This document shows, piece after piece, positions 1-57,047 of a DNA stretch of 64,000 bases. This stretch comes from Tachypleus tridentatus. Lineage: Eukaryota > Arthropoda > Merostomata > Xiphosura > Limulidae. The stretch spans positions 21,817,396 through 21,881,395 of the forward strand of contig NC_134833.1 in NCBI RefSeq assembly GCF_004210375.1, in the 5' to 3' direction. The notes under the pieces were generated by a model. The model ran no database searches and was not told the origin of the DNA. It saw nothing but the letters and a program-made list of their open reading frames with translations. A program made the translations under genes and the position numbers. Positions within the stretch are counted from its first letter, which is position 1; the number at the start of each line of letters is the position of its first letter.

Positions 1-372
1 ATTAATCAGGAACTACAGATGTTTGACTAGAGATGTTTCCAGATTTTGAACATTAAAAATCTTTTAACTTCGGCGGATTAAGATTGGATATCAGTATTTG
101 TACGAAAACGTAATATACATTCAACAGTGAAAAACTCACGTGTGGTCAGCGAAGAGCTAGCTATCTCCCGTTAAGTGAATTATACCTATATCAGCTCAGA
201 ATTAAGTTATCGGAATCCTCGATAAGATATCAAAGAAGTTCGGGATCGGATAGAAGACTCAATATTGTTTATAAGTTTGTAAAACTTTTGTAAATACATC
301 ATTATTTGTAACAATAACCATTATTATATCACTACATTGTTTGTATATTAAGATATATTTGAATTAAGAATT
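1..372 (+). mobile_element. LTR fragment, left edge, cut by SINE
   Basis: This segment matches about 57937-58345 block by block, for example TATTGTTTATAAGTTT near 265, TTGTTTGTATATTAA near 340 and GAGCTAGCTA near 156. The other copy has LTR hallmarks, so this is read as part of a related LTR running off the left edge. It ends abruptly where an inverted SINE-A begins. Divergence is substantial, so it is an old or different-subfamily copy. Confidence 0.5.
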
Positions 373-612
373 ATTTTTTGTTTTGTTTTTTATTTTCTGC
401 AAAGCTACTTGAGGGCTATCTGCGCTAGCCGTCTCTCGTTTAGCGGTGACTAGAGGGAAGGCAGCTAGACATCACCATCAACCTCCAACGAACAGTGGGA
501 TTGACCATAACATTATAATGCCCCCACGGCTAAAAGGGCGAGTATTTTAATGTGACGGGGATTCGAACCCGCGACTCTCAGCTTACGAGTAGAGCACCCT
601 AACCGGTCAATC
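373..612 (-). mobile_element. SINE-A copy, reverse
   Basis: SINE-A is a ~270-bp tRNA-derived element. Its head has a pol III A-box-like TGGCCAGGTGG, an anticodon-loop-like CTCGTAA and B box GGTTCGAATCC. The body contains CCCACTATTCGTTGGTAAAA, and the tail is GCGCGAAATTCAAAAACAAAC. Here it is inverted, diverged and missing part of the body. It apparently interrupts the LTR fragment to its left. Confidence 0.8.
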
Positions 613-620
613 CTACTCTT

Positions 621-757
621 ACATGGTAAAAGAGTAGTTCGAGAGTTGGCAGTGGTTGGTGATGACTAGCTGCATTCTTTCTAGGCTTACACTGCTAAAT
701 TAGAGACGGCTAGGCTAATAACCTTCGTGCAGCTTTGCACGAAATTAAAAAAACAAA
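621..757 (+). mobile_element. SINE-A 3' half
   Basis: Forward-oriented body and tail of SINE-A only, from GGTAAAAGAGTAG to CACGAAATTAAAAAAACAAAC. It abuts the inverted copy at 373-612, giving a head-to-head arrangement. Confidence 0.8.
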
Positions 758-1753
758 CAAATAATACTAAATTACGTGAAGATCACTGAAATATGACTAA
801 TTTATCGTACGAAAAATTTGCGAACTCTCGGTATATTAAATTTTGAGACTTGGCGCGTCCTGGCAGCATATGAAGTCATCTAGGAATTTATTAAGTGTTT
901 CCAGGAGAATATGTTGGCCCAAAAGTCTGCTGAGTCGGATAATGTGAACCATATTTCATCTACACGTGTTTTCAGCTATTGGAAGTGCTTCCCTTTCTAC
1001 GCATTCAGAAACCGCGCCGCCTAATGACTAACTACTATCGATGTGAAAACGGGAGTTATCGGTTAATGCGTTACTGCTTGTGTGTATCTTGCCAGTAGGA
1101 TAGAGGGTGACGTTGTTGTCTATGTGAGAATATGTTGAAACGAATCATTAAAATAATAATCAGAAACCTGAGTGAAATGTTAATAAAGGTTAGACTAGGA
1201 TTAAAATTTGTTGATTCATTTTAAAAATTAAAAAAAAAGATAAACATACTGAAAACACATCACACTAAATCCTCCAAAATGTATCAGACAATCGAGCAAG
1301 TTTGCTCAATATCCATATTTCCAGTTAATTACTAGTTAGCAGAACAGCTGTTTAAAATTGAATATCTTATAATAATTTTGCTCCAAAGATATTGTTTTCA
1401 TTATTTCTTTTTTAAATGTAAAACAATCTATTCATTTTATGTTATATTTTCTAATCATTATCATCACTAAATATAATCATTTGCTGTTGAACTCAAAGCT
1501 ACACATTGGGTATTTGTGTTGTTTCCACTACAGATATTGAATTCACAGAATCGAATTACCCCTGAGCCCCTGAGGGAAGGGAAACACATCTAATAGAATT
1601 GTTCTAATTATCTCACCATTTAAATATTTACTGTTAATAAGTACTCTGAACTAAATATTTAATTTTTGAAAAAATTATGATAATAACTAAGTATTCCTGT
1701 ATTAACTGGTGCACCTAATTAGTCACTGTAGTAAAGAATTAGACACGTAATTT

Positions 1754-2018
1754 GACCAGGTGGTTAAAATACACGACTCGTAAGTTAAGGATCGCGGGTT
1801 CGAGTCCCCATCGCACCAAACATGCTCGCCATTTCAGCCTTGAGGGCGTTGTAAAGTGACGATCAATTCCGCTGTTCGTTGGTAAAAGAGTAGTCCAAAG
1901 TTGGCGGTGGGTGGTGATGATTAGCTGCCTTCCCTCTAGTCTTACACTGCTAAATTAGGGACAGCTAACACAGACAGTCCTTGTGTATCTTTGCGCGAAA
2001 TTCAAAAACAAACAAACA
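1754..2018 (+). mobile_element. SINE-A copy
   Basis: Nearly full-length forward SINE-A lacking the first ~12 bases. The B box appears as GGTTCGAGTCC and the tail as GAAATTCAAAAACAAAC. Confidence 0.85.
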
Positions 2019-2301
2019 CAATTTTAATTAATAGAGGTTCTGAAACTTACCTTAGCCTTCTTCTCATTTCTTTAGAAAAATATCTAATTTTAAAGTATGC
2101 GGGTCACTTTATAAATGTACACAAAACCTGAAATCTATAAATATCCACAAACACATGAATATTTAATACGCATATATATATATATATTTCAATTTAACAA
2201 CGACCATGCAAGTCAACGAAACTAATTGTGTAACATTTGGTACCAAAGGAGGGTGCGTACAAGACCCAGAAATCTGGAAAATTTGGGTACAATACAGGTG
2301 A

Positions 2302-2558
2302 CCGACATGGCCAGATGGTTAAGGCACTCGACTCGTAATCTGAGGGTAGAAGGTACGAATTCCCTCTCACCAAACGTGTCCTCCATTTCAGCCGTGGGTA
2401 CGTTATAATGTGACGGCTAATCTAACAATTAGTTGGTAAAGGTTAATCAAAAGTTGGCGGTGGGTGGTAATGACTAGCTGCATTCTCTCTAGCCTTAAAA
2501 TGCTAAATTATGGACTACTAGCGCAGGTGGCACTCGCGAAATTGAAAACAAACAAACA
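2302..2558 (+). mobile_element. SINE-A copy
   Basis: Full-length forward SINE-A starting CCGACATGGCCAG. The B box is degraded and the tail is GAAATTGAAAACAAAC. Confidence 0.85.
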
Positions 2559-2569
2559 ATAGAGATGAC

Positions 2570-3727
2570 CGCTCTGACCACTATATCTATAAAAGGTCAC
2601 AGCAAGAGGTCTTCTCAGTTGAGTGAACCACTCTTACCAGTCTGTCTATAGCTGTTCACGTGTTTTGACGATGCAGTGAACATATGTTTGTAGAAAGATG
2701 TACTTCTCTTCGTTGTTGTTTTATTAGAGCTTAGAGCAACTTTGCTCTGGCCTCTTCTACGACTTTATTTCAACCGAACTTCTGTCATTATTGCATCCGC
2801 TTGTATTATACTGGTAGCATATGGAACACTCAATCTAAACCTTTAACCTGGAGCTTTGAAACGTCAAAACTGGTTGTACTAAACGTACTCAATTAATACT
2901 GACTTCTCTATAATCTCTGTAGATGTTGTTACTACAGTTACACCACAACCTCGGGCAAAGTTTATTAGAAAAGTGTGTCTTTCCAGAGACACACAAAATC
3001 TTTGTATCTCTTCCTGGTTTCTTTCACTCTGAAAGCTGAAGACCACCATTGGATTACCCATAATTCAGTGCATATTATGTAAGGCTTGCAATAGCGTTGA
3101 TAAAATACCGGAATTGTACCTCTTGAAGGTGAATACCTTACATGATCGGAAATTCTGTTTATCTCAGAGATTCGTGATAGATTTAGGCATTTTGGTTTAC
3201 TCAGAGATTCTTGGCTTGCTCATAGATTCTGGTTGACTCAGAGTTTTGTTGTTAAATTCAACTGAGTAAATTTTGAAAGATTGAATCACCTATTATTGTC
3301 AAATCTAGATTGCTAACTAGCGACGAATTGCTGTTTAAATTGCACGTGCTTTTCCCAATACTAACACTTCTTAACAGAAGAGTTAGTTAAAAATTCAAAT
3401 CTACATCTGATGTAAGACTTGACGAAAACGTTACTCAGCAAGACGAGAATTGCTGAACTCCACGTAATTCCGAAGGTTCTTATAACCATACCATTTTGAC
3501 CAGAGGATATTATGGTTCATAAAATTCAAAGATAAACAACATAACCTGTTCTTTATCTCATAGTTTAAACCGTCAGAGAACCACAAAACACATCGTATTG
3601 CTATGCTTTGCTTTTTTTTTAATACGAATGTTAAGATATTAGAACAAACAATCAAAGGTAAGCTGCGTGCATTTTAAACTTTCAAACAGACGTGAAGCTC
3701 TTTTTTTAACAGTAACCCCCACACACA
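2570..3727. other. Intergenic/intronic, no gene recognised
   Basis: AT-rich single-copy-looking sequence. A loose cluster of 'cagagattc' phrases near 3165-3250 suggests a decayed short repeat. Short open frames here have no recognisable domain. Confidence 0.4.
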
Positions 3728-3744
3728 CACGGTAAGACAGCGGT

Positions 3745-3838
3745 AAGATTTAGGATTTGCAGCACTAAAATCAGTGGTTCGGTGAACGCAGCAGGTATCC
3801 CAATGTGGCTTTACTAGAAGAAAACCCACACACTTTTA
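3745..3838 (+). mobile_element. SINE-B copy
   Basis: SINE-B is a second tRNA-like family of ~115 bp. Its head contains GTACAGCGGTA, the B box is GGTTCGATTCCCC, and the tail is TGTGGCTTTGCTATAAGAAAA. This copy runs from CAGCGGTAAGAT to GTGGCTTTACTAGAAGAAAA. Confidence 0.65.
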
Positions 3839-4049
3839 ACAAGCTTTGTATATCGTTCAAAAGTATAAAACACATTGCAAGAATGTGAATATGTTGGTTA
3901 GTAAACGATAGACAGTGTGTTTGTTAGGTTAAACTGGTTCTGTACAATGTTAACGGAATAAGCCACACCGTTGTATGTACTTTTGGGTTTGGAACGAGGT
4001 AAAATGTATGTTAATTGATATGTAAAACATCTTCCATCTACCCTAGTGG

Positions 4050-4300
4050 CTTTTTTGTTTGTTCCGAATTTCCCGCAAAGCTACAGGGGCTACCTGCGCT
4101 AGCCATCTCTAATTAAGTAGTACAAGTCTACAGGAACGCGGCTAGTCATCACCACCCACCGCCAACTCTGGGGCTACTCTTTTACCAACAGTAGAGGGAT
4201 TGACCGTCACATTGTAACACCCTTACGGCTGACCAGGATTCGAACCCTCGACCTTCAGGTTACGAATCAAGTGTCCTAACCATCTGCCCATGCCGGATCT
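4050..4300 (-). mobile_element. SINE-A copy, reverse
   Basis: Inverted SINE-A from TTTGTTTGTTCCGAATTTC to CCCATGCCGGATC. The complement of the B box (GGATTCGAACC) is intact. Confidence 0.85.
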
Positions 4301-5158
4301 CACAAGTGGCTTAATATTGTATGCAGATTTCCTATTAATAAAGGCTAATAAAAAGTTAGGGAACTTATCGTTGTCGACATTTTGTGGATTCAAGTGCTGC
4401 ACAAATATCTTCAAAGGAAAAGTGCTGCAAGTGACTGAGATGTTCTTAAAGCGTTTGAAATAGTGATACTTTTAATGAACTAACATTGATTTACTTAATC
4501 GTGAGGATAGTTAATACTGGGAAACGATCTAAAGTGCGATAGTGCAAGGTGCAAAAATAACGTGAAAAATGATCACAGCCTTATATCTTTCCACGAGCAT
4601 TAACCTGTCCTCGCGTCTTCCTTGATTTATCTCTCTAAGGAGATGCGTTTTATTCTAACTCAGTCTTAAAGCTAAATTACTTGCAGGTGTAACAGATCTT
4701 GGTCGCTTGGAAAGAACGAGTCTTAAGTAAATAGATTACTGAAATATTTTAACAAAGAATATTTTCTTGTGTTCGTAGAACAATAGCAATAAAGTTCAAA
4801 TCACGAGAAACGAGCTATTAAACGTTATAACTTTGAGTAAAGGGCTGTCTCTGTCTGGTTTACCACGAAATGTTTTTTTCAGAACGTTATGTTTAACTAT
4901 CCTCAACAATACTGTTTACTCTACGTGATGCACGTAAAGTCTGGAAAATTGTTTTTTTTTTATCTTTTGTTCAATTGTTCAGACAACAATACATACGAAA
5001 AATTCCCAGACTACACTATTGTAACTGGTAATCACTGTTGACTCTGGTCTTGGACGTTGTTTCAATCATTTAAATCCAATTTTCAAATAAACAAGAGAGA
5101 AAAAAAAAAAAAAGGCTGTAATTATTATATAATGTAAACAACTGATATAGGTATTATT
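4301..5158. other. Intergenic/intronic, no gene recognised
   Basis: AT-rich unique-looking sequence with homopolymer A/T runs. No coding or RNA feature is supported. Confidence 0.4.
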
Positions 5159-5430
5159 TTGGGTTTGGTTTTAAATTTCGCACAAAACTGCACGAGGGTT
5201 ATCTGCGCTAGCCATCCATAATTTTACAGTGCAAGACTAGAGGAAGGCAGCTAGTCATCACCACCCACCCCAGCTCTTGGGCTACTTTTTTTACCAACGA
5301 ATAGAAGGTCTGACCGTCACATTATAATGCTCCCACAGTTTGAAAGGGCGAGCATGTTTGATGTTACGGGGATTTGAATCTGCGACCTTCAGATTACGAG
5401 TGAAGCGCCCTAACCACCAGGCCGTGCATA
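5159..5430 (-). mobile_element. SINE-A copy, reverse
   Basis: Inverted full-length SINE-A, from the tail AAATTTCGCACAAA to the head complement near CCAGGCCGTGCAT, with diverged boxes. Confidence 0.85.
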
Positions 5431-5527
5431 TGTAATGCGTGCTCTCTTCTTCGTGTTAATAATAATTAAAAGCTTTGAAACAAGCTTAACCCTGAGTACA
5501 ACTCCTTTGTTCTCCATATCGTAGTTC

Positions 5528-6027
5528 NNNNNNNNNNNNNNNNNNNNNNNNNNNNNNNNNNNNNNNNNNNNNNNNNNNNNNNNNNNNNNNNNNNNNNNNN
5601 NNNNNNNNNNNNNNNNNNNNNNNNNNNNNNNNNNNNNNNNNNNNNNNNNNNNNNNNNNNNNNNNNNNNNNNNNNNNNNNNNNNNNNNNNNNNNNNNNNNN
5701 NNNNNNNNNNNNNNNNNNNNNNNNNNNNNNNNNNNNNNNNNNNNNNNNNNNNNNNNNNNNNNNNNNNNNNNNNNNNNNNNNNNNNNNNNNNNNNNNNNNN
5801 NNNNNNNNNNNNNNNNNNNNNNNNNNNNNNNNNNNNNNNNNNNNNNNNNNNNNNNNNNNNNNNNNNNNNNNNNNNNNNNNNNNNNNNNNNNNNNNNNNNN
5901 NNNNNNNNNNNNNNNNNNNNNNNNNNNNNNNNNNNNNNNNNNNNNNNNNNNNNNNNNNNNNNNNNNNNNNNNNNNNNNNNNNNNNNNNNNNNNNNNNNNN
6001 NNNNNNNNNNNNNNNNNNNNNNNNNNN
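5528..6027. other. Assembly gap (500 N)
   Basis: Exactly 500 N bases. The gap abuts a long tandem array on its right, so the missing sequence is probably more of that array and the round size is probably a placeholder. Confidence 0.95.
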
Positions 6028-8430
6028 TCAAGAAGAAAAAAGAGGATTTTGATAAAAAAAAACAGGAACTCTATCATTCGGCTCAAGAAGAAAAAAGAGG
6101 ATTTTGATAAAAAAACAGGAACTCTATCATTCGGCTCAAGAAGAAAAAAGAGGATTTTGAAAAAAAAAAACAGGAACTCTATCATTCGGCTCAAGAAGAA
6201 AAAAGGGATTTTGATAAAAAAAAAACAGGAACTCTATCATTCGGCTCAAGAAGAAAAAAGAGGATTTTGATTAAAAAAACAGGAACTCTATCATTCGGCT
6301 CAAGAAGAAAAAAGAGGATTTTGATAAAAAAAAACAGGAACTCTATCATTCGGCTCAAGAAGAAAAAAGAGGATTTTGATAAAAAAAACAGGAACTCTAT
6401 CATTCGGCTCAAGAAGAAAAAAGAGGATTTTGATAAAAAAACAGGAACTCTATTATTCGGCTCAAGAAGAAAAAAGAGGATTTTAAAAAAAAACAGGAAC
6501 TCTATCATTCGGCTCAAGAAGAAAAAAGAGGATTTTGATAAAAAAAACAGGAACTCTATCATTCGGCTCAAGAAGAAAAAAGAGGATTTTGATAAAAAAA
6601 CAGGAACTCTATCATTCGGCTCAAGAAGAAAAAAGAGGATTTTGATAAAAAAAAACAGGAACTCTATCATTCGGCTCAAGCTCAAGAAAAAAAAGAGGAT
6701 TTTGATTAAAAAAACAGGAACTCTATCATTCGGCTCAAGAAGAAAAAAAGGATTTTGATTAAAAAACAGGAACTCTATATCAAGAAGAAAAAAAGAGGAT
6801 GATCAGGAACTCTAAGCTCAAGAAGAAAAAGAGGATTTTGATTAAAAAAACAGGAACTCTATCATTCGGCTCAAGAAGAAAAAGAGGATTTTGAAAAAAA
6901 CAGGAACTCTATCATTCGGCTCAAGAAGAAAAAAGAGGATTTTGATAAAAAAAACAGGAACTCTATCATTCGGCTCAAGAAGAAAAAAGAGGATTTTGAT
7001 AAAAAAAAACAGGAACTCTATCATTCGGCTCAAGAAGAAAAAAGAGGATTTTGATAAAAAAAACAGGAACTCTATCATTCGGCTCAAGAAGAAAAAAGAG
7101 GATTTTGATAAAAAAAACAGGAACTCTATCATTCGGCTCAAGAAGAAAAAAGAGGATTTTGATAAAAAAACAGGAACTCTATCATTCGGCTCAAGAAGAA
7201 AAAAGAGGATTTTGATAAAAAAACAGGAACTCTATCATTCGGCTCAAGAAGAAAAAAGAGGATTTTGATAAAAAAAAACAGGAACTCTATTATTCGGCTC
7301 AAGAAGAAAAAAAGAGGATTTTGAAAAAAAAAACAGGAACTCTATCATTCGGCTCAAGAAGAAAAAAGAGGATTTTGATAAAAAAACAGGAACTCTATCA
7401 TTCGGCTCAAGAAGAAAAAAGAGGATTTTTCGGCTCTAAGAAGAAGAAAAAAGAGGATTTGATAAAAAAAAACAGGATTCGGCTCAAGAAAAAAAAAGAG
7501 GATTTTGATTAAAAAAACAGGAACTCTATCATTCGGCTCAAGAAGAAAAAAGAGGATTTTGATAAAAAAACAGGAACTCTATCATTCGGCTCAAGAAGAA
7601 AAAAGAGGATTTTGATAAAAAAACAGGAACTCTATCATTCGGCTCAAGAAGAAAAAAGAGGATTTTGATAAAAAAAAAAAACAGGAACTCTATCATTCGG
7701 CTCAAGAAGAAAAAAGAGGATTTTGATTAAAAAAAACAGGAACTCTATCATTCGGCTCAAGAAGAAAAAAGAGGATTTTGATTAAAAAAACAGGAACTCT
7801 ATCATTCGGCTCAAGAAGAAAAAAGAGGATTTTGATAAAAAAAAAACAGGAACTCTATTATTCGGCTCAAGAAGAAAAAAGAGGATTTTGATTAAAAAAA
7901 CAGGAACTCTATTATTCGGCTCAAGAAGAAAAAAAAGAGGATTTTGATAAAAAAAACAGGAACTCTATTATTCGGCTCAAGAAGAAAAAAGAGGATTTTG
8001 ATAAAAAAAACAGGAACTCTATTATTCGGCTCAAGAAGAAAAAAAGAGGATTTTGATAAAAAAACAGGAACTCTATTGTTCGGCTCAAGAAGAAGAAAAG
8101 AGGATTTTTATCAGAAAACAGCAATTCCATTTTGTGGCTCAAGAGGAAAAAAGGAAGATTTTAATCAAAAAATAACAACCCCGTTTTTCAGCTCAAGAGG
8201 AAAAAAAAAAGAGTATTTTAATCATAAAACAGCAATTCCGTTTTCCGACTTACGAAGTAAAAAAGAACAGTTTGATCAAAAAAGGACATCTCTATTATTC
8301 GGCTCAAGAAGAAAAAAGAGGATTTTGATAAAAAATAGGAACTCTATTATTCGGCTCAAGAAGAAAAAAGAGGATTTTGATAAAAAATAGGAACTCTATT
8401 ATTCGGCTCAAGAGGAAAAAAAATTCGAGA
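6028..8430 (+). repeat. A-rich ~52-bp minisatellite array
   Basis: About 45 head-to-tail copies of a ~50-55-bp unit. Each has the constant core ACTCTATCATTCGGCTCAAG, a purine block AAGAAGAAAAAAGAGG and a variable A tract after TTTTGAT, which changes unit length copy to copy. Units around 8100-8290 are much more diverged than the rest. The right end fades into AT-rich sequence and the left end enters the assembly gap. Periodic open frames on both strands are by-products, not genes. Confidence 0.95.
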
Positions 8431-33410: not shown

Positions 33411-33486
33411 GGGGCTCACCACTCACTACCTCAGTTTAGTTCTAGCTGCCTAAGTGAAGACATAGACCGATCTGATTTTATCAAAG

Positions 33487-34389
33487 GTGGCATCAAGAAG
33501 CTGTAAGCATTCCCCAAACGCATTCTACTACGTATGTGGCAAATTTATCAAGACAAGAGCAAAAACGTACTCTGTGAAAGAGGAATACAACATCATCAAG
33601 ACCTTGCTAGAAGCCTTGAAGTATGATGAGTGTGGCTGGGATGTTATCGGAGACTTCAAAATGGCGGCATTCCTGATGGATAGCCAAAAAGGTTTTACCA
33701 AGTTTCCCTGTTATCTTTGCCTTTGGGACAGCAGGGACACCGCAGCGCACTGCAACAGAAAACATTGGCCAAAACGGATCAAGTTCTCTGTGGGGAAACA
33801 CAATGTCAAGTGTGAGCCACTAGTGGACCTCCAGAAAGTGTTGTTCCCACCATTGCACATAAAACTGGGTCTTATGAAACAATTTTTCACAGCTCTTGGT
33901 AAGGGGTCTGCAGCCTTCAAGCACCTTCGAGACTTCTTCTCTAAGCTGTCTGAGGCAAAGGTCAAAGCTGGTGTCTTCGTTAGACCACAAATAAAGAAGA
34001 TTCCGAAGAATTCCCCAAGAAACTCAATAGGAAGGGAAAAAACAACAACTCGGGGCAGCTTTGTCGCTGTGGTTCGGGGCTTCTTGGGCAATCACAAGGC
34101 CGAAAATTATGTGGAATTGGTTGATGCTCTGGTAAAGAACTATGGCAAAATGGGCTGCAGGATGTCCCTGAAAGTCCATATCCTTGACGCTCATCTTGAT
34201 AAATTCAAGGAAAACATGAAAGCATACTCAGAGGAGCAAGACGAGCGCTTCCACCAAGACGCACTGGAATTTGAACACCGCTACCAAGAAGCGTATAACG
34301 AAAACATGATGGGAGACTATATTTGAGGGCTGATACGTGAAAGTGATTTATATTACAGTCAAAAATCTCGAAAAACTACTCACTTCTAA
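33487..34389 (+). pseudogene. Decayed copy of arthropod multicopy (TE-like) gene
   Basis: An open frame to 34326 encodes a protein I recognise as a family scattered in many copies through arthropod genomes, function unknown and probably transposon-derived. N-terminal residues 1-30 carry a cysteine pair (C6, C17). A CYLC...H zinc-knuckle-like motif lies near residue 75. The conserved C-terminal half ends NENMMGDYI. Breaks: the expected ATG is GTG at 33487; residues 30/31 (about 33577) join an N-terminal piece straight to a downstream block, implying a large internal deletion or removed exons; about 34005-34040 reads as family sequence in another frame (two compensating indels); a TGA at 34324 replaces Trp, after which 22 family-like residues continue to a TAA at 34387-34389. 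I judge it non-functional. What the intact protein does is unknown to me. Confidence 0.75.
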
Positions 34390-34899: not shown

Positions 34900-35394
34900 A
34901 TAACACGTAATATCCAGGAACAAAATTTGTGTTATTTGGTGTTATTACTGAACTGATATTTGTCTTTAGCCTCACTATAAACAGTAGCTGGCTGTGGTCC
35001 AGTGGACGGTGAATCCGTTGTCGCTCAAAAGCTCTCGCTTTTTGAAACCGCGAGAGTGGTAGACGTGTGATAATCAAATCCAAATACTCAGCGCAACGTC
35101 GGCAGAGTTTACTTTGTTATTAGATGGAGAGTAAAGGCCGTTTGATTGTTCTCCAACTGCGCTGTTGATATATTTAAATGAAATGTGCAGCAACTTATGA
35201 AAAACTGCATTAAGTGTTTAATGTACTTTTATTAGTAACGCCTAGAAATAACATGTCTATAAATACTAATATTTTTTTACTAAACTGGAATGTAAGTCAG
35301 TTGGAAAGACAACAGTTAATGTCTTGAATCGATTTCGAAACAGAGAGATACAAACTTTAGAACATGAGTTAAACAGATAAAATAAATCGTCTAC
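34900..35394. other. Intergenic, no gene recognised
   Basis: A tRNA-like CGCTCAAAAGCTCTCGC / CCGCGAGAGTGG phrase at 35020-35060 is too degenerate to call. Nothing else supported. Confidence 0.35.
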
Positions 35395-36612
35395 CAATAA
35401 CATTTGATTTGGTATACAGCCTACCAACAACATTTGATTTGGGTATACAGTTTACCAAGTACATTTTCTTTGGTATTCAGTCTACCAATAACATTTGGTT
35501 TGGTATACACTCTACCAACAATACTTCATTTGGTATACAGTCTGCCAACAATACTTGATTTGGTATACAGCCTACCAACAACATTTGATTTGGTATACAG
35601 TCTACCAAGTACATTTTCTTTGGTATTCAGTCTACCAATAACATTTGGTTTGGTATACACTCTACCAACAATACTTCATTTGGTATACAGTCTGCCAACA
35701 ATACTTGATTTGGTATACAGTCTACCAACAACATTTGATTTGGTATACAGTCTACCAAGTACATTTTCTTTGGTATTCAGTTTACCAATAACATTTGGTT
35801 TGGTATACACTCTACCAACAATACTTCATTTGGTATACAGTCTGCCAACAATACTTGATTTGGTATACAGTCTACCAACAACATTTGATTTGGTATACAG
35901 TCTACCAAGTACATTTTCTTTGGTATTCAGTCTACCAATAACATTTGGTTTGGTATACACTCTACCAACAATACTTCATTTGGTATACAGTCTGCCAACA
36001 ATACTTGATTTGGTATACAGCCTACCAGCAACATTTGATTTGGTATACAGTCTACCAAGTACATTTTCTTTGGTATTCAGTCTACCAATAACATTTGGTT
36101 TGGTATACACTCTACCAACAATACTTCATTTGGTATACAGTCTGCCAACAATACTTGATTTGGTATACAGTCTACCAACAACATTTGATTTGGTATACAG
36201 TCTACCAAGTACATTTTCTTTGGTATTCAGTTTACCAATAACATTTGGTTTGGTATACACTCTACCAACAATACTTCATTTGGTATACAGTCTGCCAACA
36301 ATGCTTGATTTGGTATACAGTCTACCAACAACATTTGATTTGGTATACAGTCTACCAAGTACATTTTCTTTGGTATTCAGTACCAATAACATTTGGTTTG
36401 GTATACACTCTACCAACAATACTTCATTTGGTATACAGTCTGCCAACAATACTTGATTTGGTATACAGCCTACCAGCAACATTTGATTTGGTATACAGTT
36501 TACCAACAACATTTGATTTGGTATACAGTCTACCAACAATACTTGATTTGGTATAGAGTCTACCAATAACATTTGATTTGGTATCCAGTCTACCCCAACA
36601 TTTGGTTTGGTA
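35395..36612 (+). repeat. 30-bp satellite in 150-bp higher-order repeat
   Basis: The basic monomer is 30 bp, CTACCAACAACATTTGAT then TTGGTATACAGT. Five diverged monomer types follow in fixed order, giving a 150-bp period: the marker ACATTTTCTTTGGTATTCAG recurs at 35461, 35611, 35761, 35911, 36061, 36211 and 36361. The last ~200 bp lose the order. Every monomer contains inverted TACCAA...TTGGTA. The long frames across it (up to 350 codons) exist only because 30 is a multiple of three. Confidence 0.97.
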
Positions 36613-43948: not shown

Positions 43949-44523
43949 TATAATTTATAGTGATTATATAAATGAAATGTGTTAAAAAAATGATGTTCCA
44001 GCACATCTGGTTCCGACACTTCTGCTGTTTCTTATCCAGGCTGAAAGTAATAAAAGCTATGATTTAAACCATTATTAGACGGTACAGTGGTATGTCTTTG
44101 GAATTATACTAAAAAAACTGGGTTTTGATACCCGTCATGGGCATATCACAGAGAGCCCTTTGTATCGCTCTGTGCTTAATAAGAAACCTTATTAAGATTT
44201 AGGCACAAAGTCAAATTAACCCTAAAAGTAAAGTACTGGGCTGATGTAATTTTTAACCAGTGCCTACGTTTCTCTATTTAATTATAACGCTTATCGATAT
44301 AGGAATGGTCATATAGTAAATTTATTCATTCGAAGGAGGGAAAACTGTTACATTATGTATTATCACTTCCCGCACACTGTAATTTGTTGTCGAACATCAC
44401 TACATGTGAGCTCTGTCATCGTCAAACATGGTTCCTTTGGAACAATATGTGTCCTTTACCACCGAATTAATTCTTGTAATGTTTTCACGTGCACACGTGA
44501 GTAACTGAACGTGCTGTTAACTG
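43949..44523. other. Intergenic with one SINE-B
   Basis: Contains the SINE-B listed separately at 44079. The remainder shows no supported feature. Confidence 0.35.
44079..44188 (+). mobile_element. SINE-B copy
   Basis: GACGGTACAGTGGTATGTC, GGGTTTTGATACCCG, tail CTCTGTGCTTAATAAG. Confidence 0.7.
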
Positions 44524-46157
44524 CTTAATGCATTCCGTACTCATTCTTCTCGTTCTTATAGACCTTCTTAATGCATTCCGTACTCATTCTTCTCGTTCTT
44601 ATAGACCTCCTTAATGCATTCCGTACTCATTCTTCTCGTTCTTATAGACCTCCTTAATGCATTCCGTACTCATTCTTCTCGTTCGTATAGACCTTCTTAA
44701 TGCATTCCGTACTCATTCTTCTCGTTCTTATAGACCTCCTTAATGCATTCCGTACTCATTCTTCTCGTTCGTATAGACCTTCTTAATGCATTCCGTACTC
44801 ATTCTTCTCGTTCTTATAGACCTCCTTAATGCATTCCGTACTCATTCTTCTCGTTCTTATAGACCTCCTTAATGCATTCCGTACTCATTCTTCTCGTTCT
44901 TATAGACCTCCTTAATGCATTCCGTACTCATTCTTCTCGTTCGTATAGACCTCCTTAATGCATTCCGTACTCATTCTTCTCGTTCGTATAGACCTCCTTA
45001 ATGCATTCCGTACTCATTCTTCTCGTTCTTATAGACCTCCTTAATGCATTCCGTACTCATTCTTCTCGTTCTTATAGACCTTCTTAATGCATTCCGTACT
45101 CATTCTTCTCGTTCTTATAGACCTCCTTAATGCATTCCGTACTCATTCTTCTCGTTCTTATAGACCTCCTTAATGCATTCCGTACTCATTCTTCTCGTTC
45201 TTATAGACCTCCTTAATGCATTCCGTACTCATTCTTCTCGTTCTTATAGACCTCTTTAATGCATTCCGTACTCATTCTTCTCGTTCTTATAGACCTCCTT
45301 AATGCATTCCGTACTCATTCTTCTCGTTCTTATAGACCTCCTTAATGCATTCCGTACTCATTCTTCTCGTTCTTATAGACCTCCTTAATGCATTCCGTAC
45401 TCATTCTTCTCGTTCTTATAGACCTTCTTAATGCATTCCGTACTCATTCTTCTCGTTCTTATAGACCTCCTTAATGCATTCCGTACTCATTCTTCTCGTT
45501 CTTATAGACCTCCTTAATGCATTCCGTACTCATTCTTCTCGTTCTTATAGACCTTCTTAATGCATTCCGTACTCATTCTTCTCGTTCTTATAGACCTTCT
45601 TAATGCATTCCGTACTCATTCTTCTCGTTCTTATAGACCTCCTTAATGCATTCCGTACTCATTCTTCTCGTTCTTATAGACCTCCTTAATGCATTCCGTA
45701 CTCATTCTTCTCGTTCTTATAGACCTCCTTAATGCATTCCGTACTCATTCTTCTCGTTCTTATAGACCTTCTTAATGCATTCCGTACTCATTCTTCTCGT
45801 TCTTATAGACCTCCTTAATGCATTCCGTACTCATTCTTCTCGTTCTTATAGACCTCCTTAATGCATTCCGTACTCATTCTTCTCGTTCTTATAGACCTCC
45901 TTAATGCATTCCGTACTCATTCTTCTCGTTCTTATAGACCTCCTTAATGCATTCCGTACTCATTCTTCTCGTTCTTATAGACCTCCTTAATGCATTCCGT
46001 ACTCATTTTTCTCGTTCTTATAGACCTCCTTAATGCATTCCGTACTCATTCTTCTCGTTCTTATAGACCTCCTTAATGCATTCCGTACTCATTCTTCTCG
46101 TTCTTATAGACCTCCTTAATGCATTCCGTACTCATTCTTCTCGTTCTTATAGACCTC
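44524..46157 (+). repeat. 43-bp minisatellite, 38 copies
   Basis: Exactly 38 units of 43 bp with no indel, each CTTAATGCATTCCGTACTC, then ATTCTTCTCGTT, then (C/CG)TTATAGACCT. Variation is confined mainly to two positions: CTTATAG versus CGTATAG, and a terminal CTC versus CTT, plus one ATTTTTCTC unit near 46006. Units contain ATGCAT and no conserved open frame. Confidence 0.98.
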
Positions 46158-46375
46158 CTTGGGAAAATATCCCTCAACCTCCTCACTCTCTCATAAGTTA
46201 TCAGGAAGTGAGCGTTGATTTGAAGTTTTTGATCACGCTAACATACCCCTTGATGTTGCTCAGAAAGAACTATCCTGTACTAACGTATAGCAAAATCGTA
46301 ATAACTAAATATATATATTTGGAGAGCCACTGAATCGCATAACTATTTCAGAATCGGTTAACTCGTTCACTCTTG
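46158..46375. other. Intergenic, no gene recognised
   Basis: Unique-looking flank of the minisatellite. No supported feature. Confidence 0.3.
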
Positions 46376-47030: not shown

Positions 47031-47309
47031 GAAAGGTTTGTTTATTTTTGAATTTCGTACAAAGCTACTCGAGGGCTATCTGCGCTAGCCGTCCCTAATT
47101 TAGCAGTGTAAGACTAGAGGGAAGGTAGCTAGTCATCACCACCTACCGCCACCTATTGGGCTACTCTTTTACTAACGAATGGTGAAATTGACCGTCACAT
47201 TATAACGCCCCCACGGCTGAAAGGGCGAGCATGTTTGGTGCGACGGAGATTCGAACCTGCGACCCTCATATTACGAGTCGAAAGCCTTAACCCACCTGGC
47301 CATGCCGAA
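47031..47309 (-). mobile_element. SINE-A copy, reverse
   Basis: Full-length inverted SINE-A. Imperfect flanks GAAAGGTTTGTT and GAAAGATTGTT may be a target-site duplication. Confidence 0.9.
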
Positions 47310-48382: not shown

Positions 48383-48680
48383 GCCAAGATCAAACTTTAA
48401 TAATTTCCGTAAAAGAAAGTCCTATTATTTGGTGTTACTAAAAAGCATTCTATGAAATATCAAACCCAGAAGCTAGTTTGTTTTATGAGAGAATAAAATT
48501 TATATATATTTTTCATTTAGTGTATTTTATTATCATGTTTTAGTTTACAACATTTTGGGTACAAATTAATTACTGTCAAAATACTCTTTTGACTTTTGAG
48601 ATAAATGAGTTATTGATAGTTCATATTCAAGGTATAGAACTTTGAAAGGGAAGTGCTGGCCACGTCATTTCCGGTCTTAC

Positions 48681-49198
48681 TTTTTCTCTCCAAACCCCCG
48701 GTTTTTGGAATGTCTAGCTAGAGAATCATCTTTTATTTTCATCGGGAAATGGGAAAACCAGTAGTAGACAAAAAAATCATCTTTGAGACCTTCATAAAGA
48801 AGTGGGAATGTTTTGTGACCAGAAGGAACTCCAGCCACTTCTGAGTTTTCCACGATAGAATTGAAATACGGCTTTCCTGTTAAAGGGGAGGAAGTTTTGT
48901 AAATGTGTTGTTTTTCCAATGGTCCTCTTTTCTCACCAAATCCACGTTTTTCAGCAAAACCTCTTTTTCCAATGTCTTTACTTTCATAATTATTGGACCA
49001 AGAAGGAGGGAGATATTGCTTTGGCTTCATCCTGTCAAGGTTGTCTTGTTTGTCATCAGTATACCCGTCGATGTCACCAGTGCTGCTTAGAAAATAATCA
49101 TTTTGCCGACCATGACCGATTTTATCATTGTCTGCAGAACCCCATATAACCTGAACCACAGTTACAAGTAAACAGAAGGTTGACAACATTTTAATATT
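48681..49198 (-). CDS. Achatin-like neuropeptide precursor, coding exon
   Basis: Reading leftwards from ATG at 49189, the exon encodes 169-170 residues of a secreted peptide precursor. Residues 1-19 (MLSTFCLLVTVVQVIWGSA) form a signal peptide. Around residues 74-91 come GKR-GFAE-KR-GFGE-KR-GPLE, and the exon ends NR-GFGE-KK. Tetrapeptides of form Gly-Phe-Ala/Gly-acidic between dibasic sites are the achatin signature (classically GFAD/GFGD); here Asp is replaced by Glu. An acceptor (CTTCCCAACAG) lies 9 bases upstream of the ATG, so a 5' non-coding exon is expected. At 48680 a GTAAGA donor overlaps the last codon before an in-frame stop, so translation probably continues into another exon, perhaps with more copies. 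The linker (residues 20-70 and 95-160) is acidic to neutral and unrecognised. Expected role: precursor processed in the secretory pathway of neurons. Confidence 0.75.
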
Positions 49199-49420
49199 CT
49201 GTTGGGAAGATATAAATTGTAAAACATGAAATATGATTCAAAATCCAATATTTTTAATATCACAATTTTAATACAGTTACATTAGTTTGCCATCTTCAGA
49301 AACATTTCTATTTATTATTTACTCTTGAAAATTAAATGCATGTATATATTCAGAAACTACATATACTATTTCCAGAACATTCTCTCTGTTTAAGATGCGT
49401 AAAAATAACGTAAATAAGAA

Positions 49421-50081: not shown

Positions 50082-50282
50082 GTCGCGCTAAACATGCTCG
50101 CCCTCCCAGCCGTGGGGGTGTACAATGTGACGGTCAATCCCACTATTCGTTGGTAAAGAGTAGCCCAAGAGTTGACGGTGGGTGGTGATGACTAGTTGCC
50201 TTCCCTCTAGTCTTACACTGCTAAATTAGGGACGGCTAGCACAGATAGCCCTCGAGTAGCTTTGTGCGAAATTTCCAAACAA
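50082..50282 (+). mobile_element. 5'-truncated SINE-A with perfect TSD
   Basis: Starts at GTCGCGCTAAACATG, lacking the whole tRNA head, yet is bounded by perfect 12-bp direct repeats TCTGCACGATTT at 50070-50081 and 50283-50294. The truncation therefore occurred during insertion. Confidence 0.95.
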
Positions 50283-52929: not shown

Positions 52930-53991
52930 GGTTCAGAAAAGAGAAAGGATTTCGAACGCTTTTAATGTTATATAATCAATAATGTTTGTTCCATTATTAT
53001 TAATTACTTCCTGCCAACGATTCACAAGCTTTTGAATGCCACTTCTATAACATTATTAGTGTTTGGAGGAAAAGAATGTAGAGAGGGTAGTTTTGGTATC
53101 TTCATGTGTTCCAAGCTCTTTCCCATCAAAATTGTTCTGCAAACTTCGGAATTGATGATAATCAGATGGGGCAAGGTTTGGAGAATAAGGAGGATGTGTA
53201 AGTTTTACCAGTCTAGCTCTTCAACCTATGCAGATGTGATCCTTGCTGTATGGGGCCGTGTATTATCCTGGTGTAACACAACACCTTTACGACTGATCAA
53301 AGCAGGCCTCTTTTATTTCAGTACAACATTCAAGCGTTCTAACTGTTGACAATAGAACTCTGATGTAATCGTTACATTGAGTGGCAGCAACTCAAAGCGG
53401 ATCACACCAACAATGTCCCACCAAACACTTAACAAGTCATTCCTAGAGGTCCATTTTGGGCTGTGCTTTAGCCAGTTTACCTGCACTGAGCCATTGTCTG
53501 CAGTGCATAACATGTTTATAAAATATCCATTTTTCATTTACAGTCATTAACCTGTCCAAAAAAGTGAGTTACGTTCACGAGAGTGCAGAGAAGTGCAAAT
53601 GTCCACTCTTGCTCTAAGTTTGGCTTCTGTCAAATCATGGGGGATCCATTTTCCAAGTTTGGACACCTTTCCAAGCTGTTGCAAATGACGGTGAACTGTT
53701 GAATTAAGCTTTTGTACTAGTTCTTCAAGTGTTACAGCACAATCTTCATCAAGTGCAGCCAACAGTAAGTCATCATTAAACTCAACAGAACGACCTGAAC
53801 GTGGCGCATCACTTAACCTGTAGTCACCTGATCTGAACTTCTGAAACCACCTTCAACATTTTCTTTCATTGAGAGACTCCACACCATAAACACCTTGAAT
53901 GTTTCTTGTAGTTTCTGTTGCACTATTGCCTTTTTTTAAACTCATAAAACATTATATGTCTAATGTGCTCCTCAGACACATCCATCTTCAT
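52930..53991 (-). pseudogene. Mariner transposase fossil
   Basis: Reading leftwards from ATG at 53991, pieces in all three reverse frames line up with a Tc1/mariner (mariner clade) transposase: an N-terminal HTH start (MKMDVSEEHIRHIM), WFQKFRSGDY, DAPRSGR, then KWIPHDLTE, NEKWIFY, GVIRFELL, YCQQLERLN, HQDNTRPHTA and HPPYSPNLAPSDYH. The DD34D residues are partly recognisable: the first Asp is Asn in VNEKW, the second is in HQDN and the third in SDYH. There are at least three frameshifts (one at an A run near 53935) and several stops. Terminal inverted repeats were not found. Non-functional. Confidence 0.88.
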
Positions 53992-56644: not shown

Positions 56645-57047
56645 TGACGTTAAGCACAAAGCCTCACAGGGGGCTGTCTATTTTGTTTGTTTGTTTGGAA
56701 TTTCGCACAAAGCTACTCGAGGGCTATCTGTGCTAGCCGTCCCTAATTTAGCAGTGTAAGACTAGAGGGAAGGCAGCTAGTCATCACCACCCACCGCCAA
56801 CTCTTGGGCTACTCTTTTACCAACGAATAGTGGGATTGACCGTCACATTATACACCCCCACGGCTGGGAGGGCGAGCATGTTTAGCGCGACGCGGGCGCG
56901 AACCCGCGACCCTCGGATTACGAGTCGCACGCCTTACGCGCTAGGCCATGCCAGGCCGGGGGACTGTCTATGCTCTGTCCACCATAGGTATTAAAACTCG
57001 GTTTCTAGAGGAGTCCTCAAACTTACCGCTGTGCCACAGGGAGGCAC
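56645..57047 (-). mobile_element. SINE-B, reverse, interrupted by SINE-A
   Basis: Left part 56645-56673 (TTAAGCACAAAGCC) and right part 56958-57047 (TCTGTCCACCATAGG, CCGCTGTGCCACAGG) together make one inverted SINE-B, split by the SINE-A at 56674-56957. Confidence 0.85.
56674..56957 (-). mobile_element. SINE-A nested in SINE-B
   Basis: Full-length inverted SINE-A of the GACGCGGGCGCGAACCCG subtype. GGGGGCTGTCTAT on the left and GGGGGACTGTCTAT on the right are the duplicated SINE-B target. Confidence 0.95.

Follow-up and report, generated by a model that had tools for sequence, protein, structure and literature searches.

The stretch of Tachypleus tridentatus DNA analysed here (the window, 64,000 nucleotides) carries on its minus strand an open frame for an achatin-like precursor, referred to below as gene A (Table 1). 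The frame begins with an ATG at 49187-49189, runs through codons down to 48680, and ends with a TAA at 48677-48679, giving a predicted protein of 170 residues. In order, this protein comprises a hydrophobic N-terminus, about 55 further residues, the series KR-GFAE-KR-GFGE-KR-GPLE-KQ, a spacer of about 70 residues, and R-GFGE-KK immediately before the stop. A preliminary description of this DNA, which left the strand unstated, had reported a signal-peptide protein with KR-GFAE-KR-GFGE-KR and R-GFGE-KK, and the minus-strand frame bears this out. The upper end given there, 49198, would be the start of the exon if the AG at 49199-49200 is an acceptor, in which case an intron in the 5′ UTR would lie just upstream of the ATG.

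Table 1. Features of gene A and its immediate surroundings (positions in the window)
Feature	Position	Strand	Basis
Achatin-like precursor A coding frame, 170 aa + TAA	48677..49189	-	Frame translation and whole-genome matches
Signal-peptide-like N-terminus MLSTFCLLVTVVQVIWGSA	49133..49189	-	Inspection of sequence
GFAE unit, KR on both sides	48950..48961	-	Motif scan
GFGE unit, KR on both sides	48932..48943	-	Motif scan
GPLE unit, KR before and KQ after	48914..48925	-	Counterpart stretch of gene B holds GFxE/D units
Spacer, repeats to terminal unit	48698..48913	-	Pairwise alignments; gene B spacer at matching place, partly alignable
Terminal GFGE-KK, then TAA or donor AAA/GTAAGA	48680..48697	-	Terminal GFGE itself at 48686-48697; gene B has GFGE-KK then TGA
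Likely acceptor AG (49199-49200) and 9 bases of 5′ UTR before ATG	49190..49200	-	Inspection; gene B AG equally distant
AATAAA, possible poly(A) signal, starting 145 bases past stop	48526..48531	-	Inspection

By inspection, a hydrophobic N-terminus is present both in gene A and in its paralogue, gene B (described below), and our guess from the -3/-1 rule is that the putative signal peptide of gene A would be cleaved after A19. Full dibasic sites stand on both sides of two of the four gene A units. Every unit has Glu at position 4, with no Asp or Asn unit among them, and GPLE-KQ is probably a decayed repeat. AATAAA motifs also follow gene B, starting 62 and 124 bases past its stop; because the DNA is AT-rich, those of either gene may be chance occurrences.

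A six-frame scan of the whole 64-kb window for [KR]GF[AG][DE][KR] returned three matches, all of them the GF units of gene A. In 400 simulated windows, generated by a first-order Markov model from the base steps of the window itself, single-unit matches occurred at a mean of 0.025 per window, no window reached three (0/400), and the tandem dibasic pair was never produced (0/400). The motifs of gene A exceed chance.

Several repetitive or transposon-like elements share the window. Alignments and translations revealed tandem repeat arrays at 44521-46160 (43-bp period), 35389-36612, and 6111-8387. A dispersed, SINE-like repeat of about 280 bp is found at 47036-47306, 50082-50282, and 56681-56957, at further places, and also near gene B, with the copies listed from the window and the gene B vicinity being 84-98 % alike. 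A 286-aa open frame on the plus strand (33466-34323) is possibly transposon-derived, and a minus-strand frame at 53550-53852 resembles part of a mariner-type transposase.

Genomic copies and the paralogue, gene B

A search of the genome (2.17 Gb, 205 contigs) with the gene A protein gave six matches. They fall at four places, namely the window, C9:22.027 Mb (99 %), C9:83.609 Mb, and C13:272.339 Mb. When the gene B protein, encoded at C9:83.6 Mb, served as the query in turn, four matches came back at these places, two of A type and two of B type; the similarity between A and B was modest in this search (37 % identity, E 5e-4 to 8e-4). As the places form near-identical pairs, we count two distinct genes, A (in the window) and B.

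The window copy of A and the copy at C9:22.027 Mb are about 161 kb apart. In a 200-kb extension, numbered in window coordinates, 9826-104792 matches approximately 171-258 kb in pieces that are 96-99 % identical, among the listed pieces of at least 1.2 kb. The contig holding the window copy covers 6028-104792 (in the region C9:21823423-22075491) and has a 500-N gap at each end, one at window positions 5528-6027 and another about 99 kb further, and window positions 1-5527, to the left of the first gap, match 136857-142412. This layout suggests that the near-identical copy is most likely the other allele, that is, one locus assembled twice, and this reading is preferred to two separate tandem A genes. 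The two copies may also represent a recent duplication.

The 170-codon frame is open in both A copies, which differ at six codons: four synonymous changes and one adjacent pair at the terminal unit, where NR precedes GFGE in the window copy and KP in the other. Identity between the copies is 98.8 % in the coding sequence, 99.0 % in the 3′ flank, and 95.3 % in the 5′ flank. Since the coding sequence is no more alike than the 3′ flank and two of the six codons are nonsynonymous, the A copies provide little evidence of selection, which we regard as weakly shown for this frame. For gene B, the copies at C9:83.6 Mb and C13:272.3 Mb have 98.3 % identity across 5.5 kb, with zero substitutions in the shared bases of the coding stretch (L007 3886-4419, compared with L008), and may be either alleles or the outcome of a recent duplication; the C13 copy lacks one 18-bp repeat unit, and its frame is broken by two homopolymers that differ in length.

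Gene B encodes 178 residues, consisting of a hydrophobic N-terminus, GLVE-KR-GFGE-KR-GFGE-KR-GFGD-KR-GFGD-KR-GFWE-KR, a spacer, and KKR-GFGE-KK followed by TGA. The canonical GFGD thus occurs twice between KR sites. Genes A and B have in common the succession of hydrophobic N-terminus, repeats, spacer, and terminal GFGEKK; in both, an AG lies exactly 9 bases upstream of the ATG and GFGEKK-stop closes the frame, and the codons of the equivalent unit differ synonymously. The long linker of gene A, described as unexplained in the preliminary description, is now less puzzling, with gene B having a spacer at the matching place, from the repeats to the terminal GFGEKK, that is partly alignable. The A-B alignment scored 147 (z 13.4), whereas 500 shuffles averaged -25.6 and never scored above 14. 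We also compared 306 frames from the gene B strand with the window after repeat masking, which removed 23,269 of 64,000 window bases (∼36 %) and 5,785 of 19,401 gene B bases, and the two best matches were the two halves of the gene A frame (E 1.4e-9 and 8.5e-5).

Neither protein (0/2) could be assigned to a Pfam family at E values up to 1, and the one PDB match, a bacterial permease (E 0.003), was judged spurious. Folding is not expected of a precursor made of short peptides and spacers.

The coagulogen family (PF02035) was also surveyed in this genome and gave 19 matches, 19/19 over the cut-off, with none in 14 control genomes (0/14). A locus at C11:9.02 Mb has four exon-like matches, two of which were compared with solved structures; both match coagulogen 1aoc, with 46/46 (residues 83-128) and 48/48 (residues 128-175) identical residues. 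Coagulogen 1aoc comes from Tachypleus tridentatus, so these exons mark the genome as that of a horseshoe crab, probably Tachypleus. Further coagulin-family matches lie at C7:19.2-20.5 Mb, C7:29.07 Mb, and C11:42.9 Mb.

Coding end, identity, and proposed products of gene A

The preliminary description placed the third peptide copy next to a splice donor and suggested that the following exon would hold further copies. Beyond the final complete K codon, the sequence reads TAAGA in gene A and TGAGA in gene B, both in-frame stops; read from one base earlier, it gives GTAAGA and GTGAGA. In gene A the donor-like GTAAGA thus contains an in-frame TAA directly behind KK, and from the window sequence alone the choice between donor and stop is ambiguous. 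GTRAGA is a good fit to the splice-donor consensus and occupies the equivalent place in both paralogues, which would suit a reading in which the last bases are a donor (AAA/GTAAGA in A, AAA/GTGAGA in B) leading to an additional exon in which the peptides would recur. We consider this unlikely, as in each gene these bases form an in-frame stop (TAA or TGA) immediately behind KK, and as artificial motif arrays, searched twice against the whole genome with the best candidates scored, gave no other GFGE/GFGD array: 4/5 and 4/7 of the matches were the known A and B places, and the rest were judged unrelated. A C10 match contained stops and none of the sought motifs, two C5 matches were 18-bp tandem arrays, and a C1 match belonged to a different, MIP/allatostatin-B-like precursor; each was rejected as a next exon. 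The repeat-masked comparison, which extended ∼15 kb beyond gene B and in which a short or single-unit exon would escape, likewise ranked the known exon first and returned no convincing later exon, the best downstream matches on the gene strand (E 0.003 and 0.006) both having stops and no motif. With KK followed by a stop in A and B alike, and with no other array found, the expectation of more copies in a next exon is unsupported; a stop is the probable reading in gene A, whose coding sequence most likely ends in the present exon.

The C1 frame mentioned above (C1:26281197-26281772, minus strand; L043 113-688) is 191 aa long and has repeated WNDLSGMWGKR-like units. It looks to us like a MIP/allatostatin-B precursor.

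Judged by its sequence, gene A is very probably a horseshoe-crab achatin-type neuropeptide precursor. A strict Gly-Phe-Xaa-Asp/Asn rule finds no example in gene A, which has Glu throughout, and two in gene B as GFGD. We nevertheless group A with the achatin-type precursors and call it achatin-like because its paralogue carries canonical GFGD beside Glu forms and because there is a tick precedent for GFGE, discussed below. The layout of gene B and its mixture of GFGE and GFGD also support the earlier proposal of a divergent arthropod achatin gene with Glu in place of Asp. Alternatively, gene A might be a duplicate in decay, or a frame open by chance, from which peptide is no longer made, with B being the working gene. 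The degenerate GPLE-KQ unit, the different residues before the terminal unit in the two copies (NR or KP), and a coding sequence no better preserved between them than the 3′ flank would fit such decay, but both copies keep the 170-codon frame open, two KR-GFxE-KR units are intact, and A and B have in common an ATG, an acceptor-like AG, and a terminal GFGEKK-stop, all of which makes it quite unlikely. We regard as very unlikely that the precursor belongs to another neuropeptide family and resembles achatins by convergence. The motif is just four residues long, and look-alikes have misled before: MxGFG peptides are one case (PMC6188537), and a glycine-rich protein was once mistaken for an achatin (PMC8557429). 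Against convergence stand the exact GFGD between KR sites in gene B, the tetrapeptide length, and the GFAE and GFWE variants, which parallel GFAD and GFWD (for GFWD, PMC4200219).

As an achatin-type precursor, the gene A product would be expected, from general knowledge of prohormones, to enter the secretory pathway, where prohormone convertases would cut at KR/KK and a carboxypeptidase would remove the basic residues, among them the KK behind the terminal GFGE. Each GF unit of A and B is followed by KR or KK, and several copies are of non-amidated type, having no Gly before the cleavage site (GFAE, GFGE, and terminal GFGE in A, and six GF units in B). The predicted products would be short, acidic, non-amidated peptides, namely GFAE and GFGE from A and GFGE, GFGD, and GFWE from B. 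Release from the terminal GFGE of gene A is doubtful, as it follows a single R in the window copy and P in the second copy. If the peptides resemble other achatins, Phe2 would probably be converted to D-Phe, and the peptides may act on an achatin-type GPCR.

Gene A is ordinary in kind, and what stands out most is the mixture of Glu and Asp across two paralogues. Glu and Asp forms stand side by side in one genome, in a peptide type known for its D-amino acid, and therefore offer an easy test of how far achatin receptors tolerate Glu and of how products are divided among duplicated chelicerate neuropeptide genes. A split after duplication in horseshoe crabs is conceivable, if somewhat unlikely, in which A makes Glu forms alone (GFAE, GFGE) and B a Glu/Asp mixture (GFGE, GFGD, GFWE), with position 4 being a point of ligand-receptor divergence in chelicerates. 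If true, this would amount to a split achatin set, possibly with separate receptors for the Glu and Asp forms.

Relation to known achatins

Achatin-I of Achatina is GFAD with D-Phe. Its Gly-Phe-Ala-acidic plan is common to GFAE of gene A, with Asp at position 4 there and Glu here. The Glu variant pointed out in the preliminary description is not new in chelicerates, because a table in PMC7828734 already lists Ixodes scapularis XM_029988349 as "Achatin-like (GFGE)". This is the sole paper in the literature searched that combines GFGE and neuropeptide as whole words. Compared by that table row alone, the tick gene is like the horseshoe crab genes in being a chelicerate gene with a GFGE tetrapeptide. 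No horseshoe crab achatin was found in the literature searched, and Veenstra (2016), on chelicerate neuropeptides, may already describe the gene in Limulus. Genes A and B would add the horseshoe crab to a peptide family documented, in the sources cited here, mostly from molluscs and annelids.

The oyster achatins are given as GFWD and GFGD (PMC4200219). The oyster precursors have Gly or Trp at position 3, as do GFGD and GFWE of gene B, and differ from gene A, which has Glu alone, and from gene B, which has both Glu and Asp. GFGN achatins are reported from priapulids, a hemichordate, a cephalochordate, and xenacoelomorphs (PMC6188537); they belong to the same GFGx family, with Asn at position 4 compared to Glu in the horseshoe crab. 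The achatin GPCR is placed in the b-unchar-3 clade (PMC5818035). In Platynereis, achatin is GFGD, and its receptor GPCR responds to D-achatin and not to the L form (PMC5747525); the tetrapeptide plan is shared with the horseshoe crab, the passage in question mentions no Glu form, and the same GFGD is encoded by gene B.
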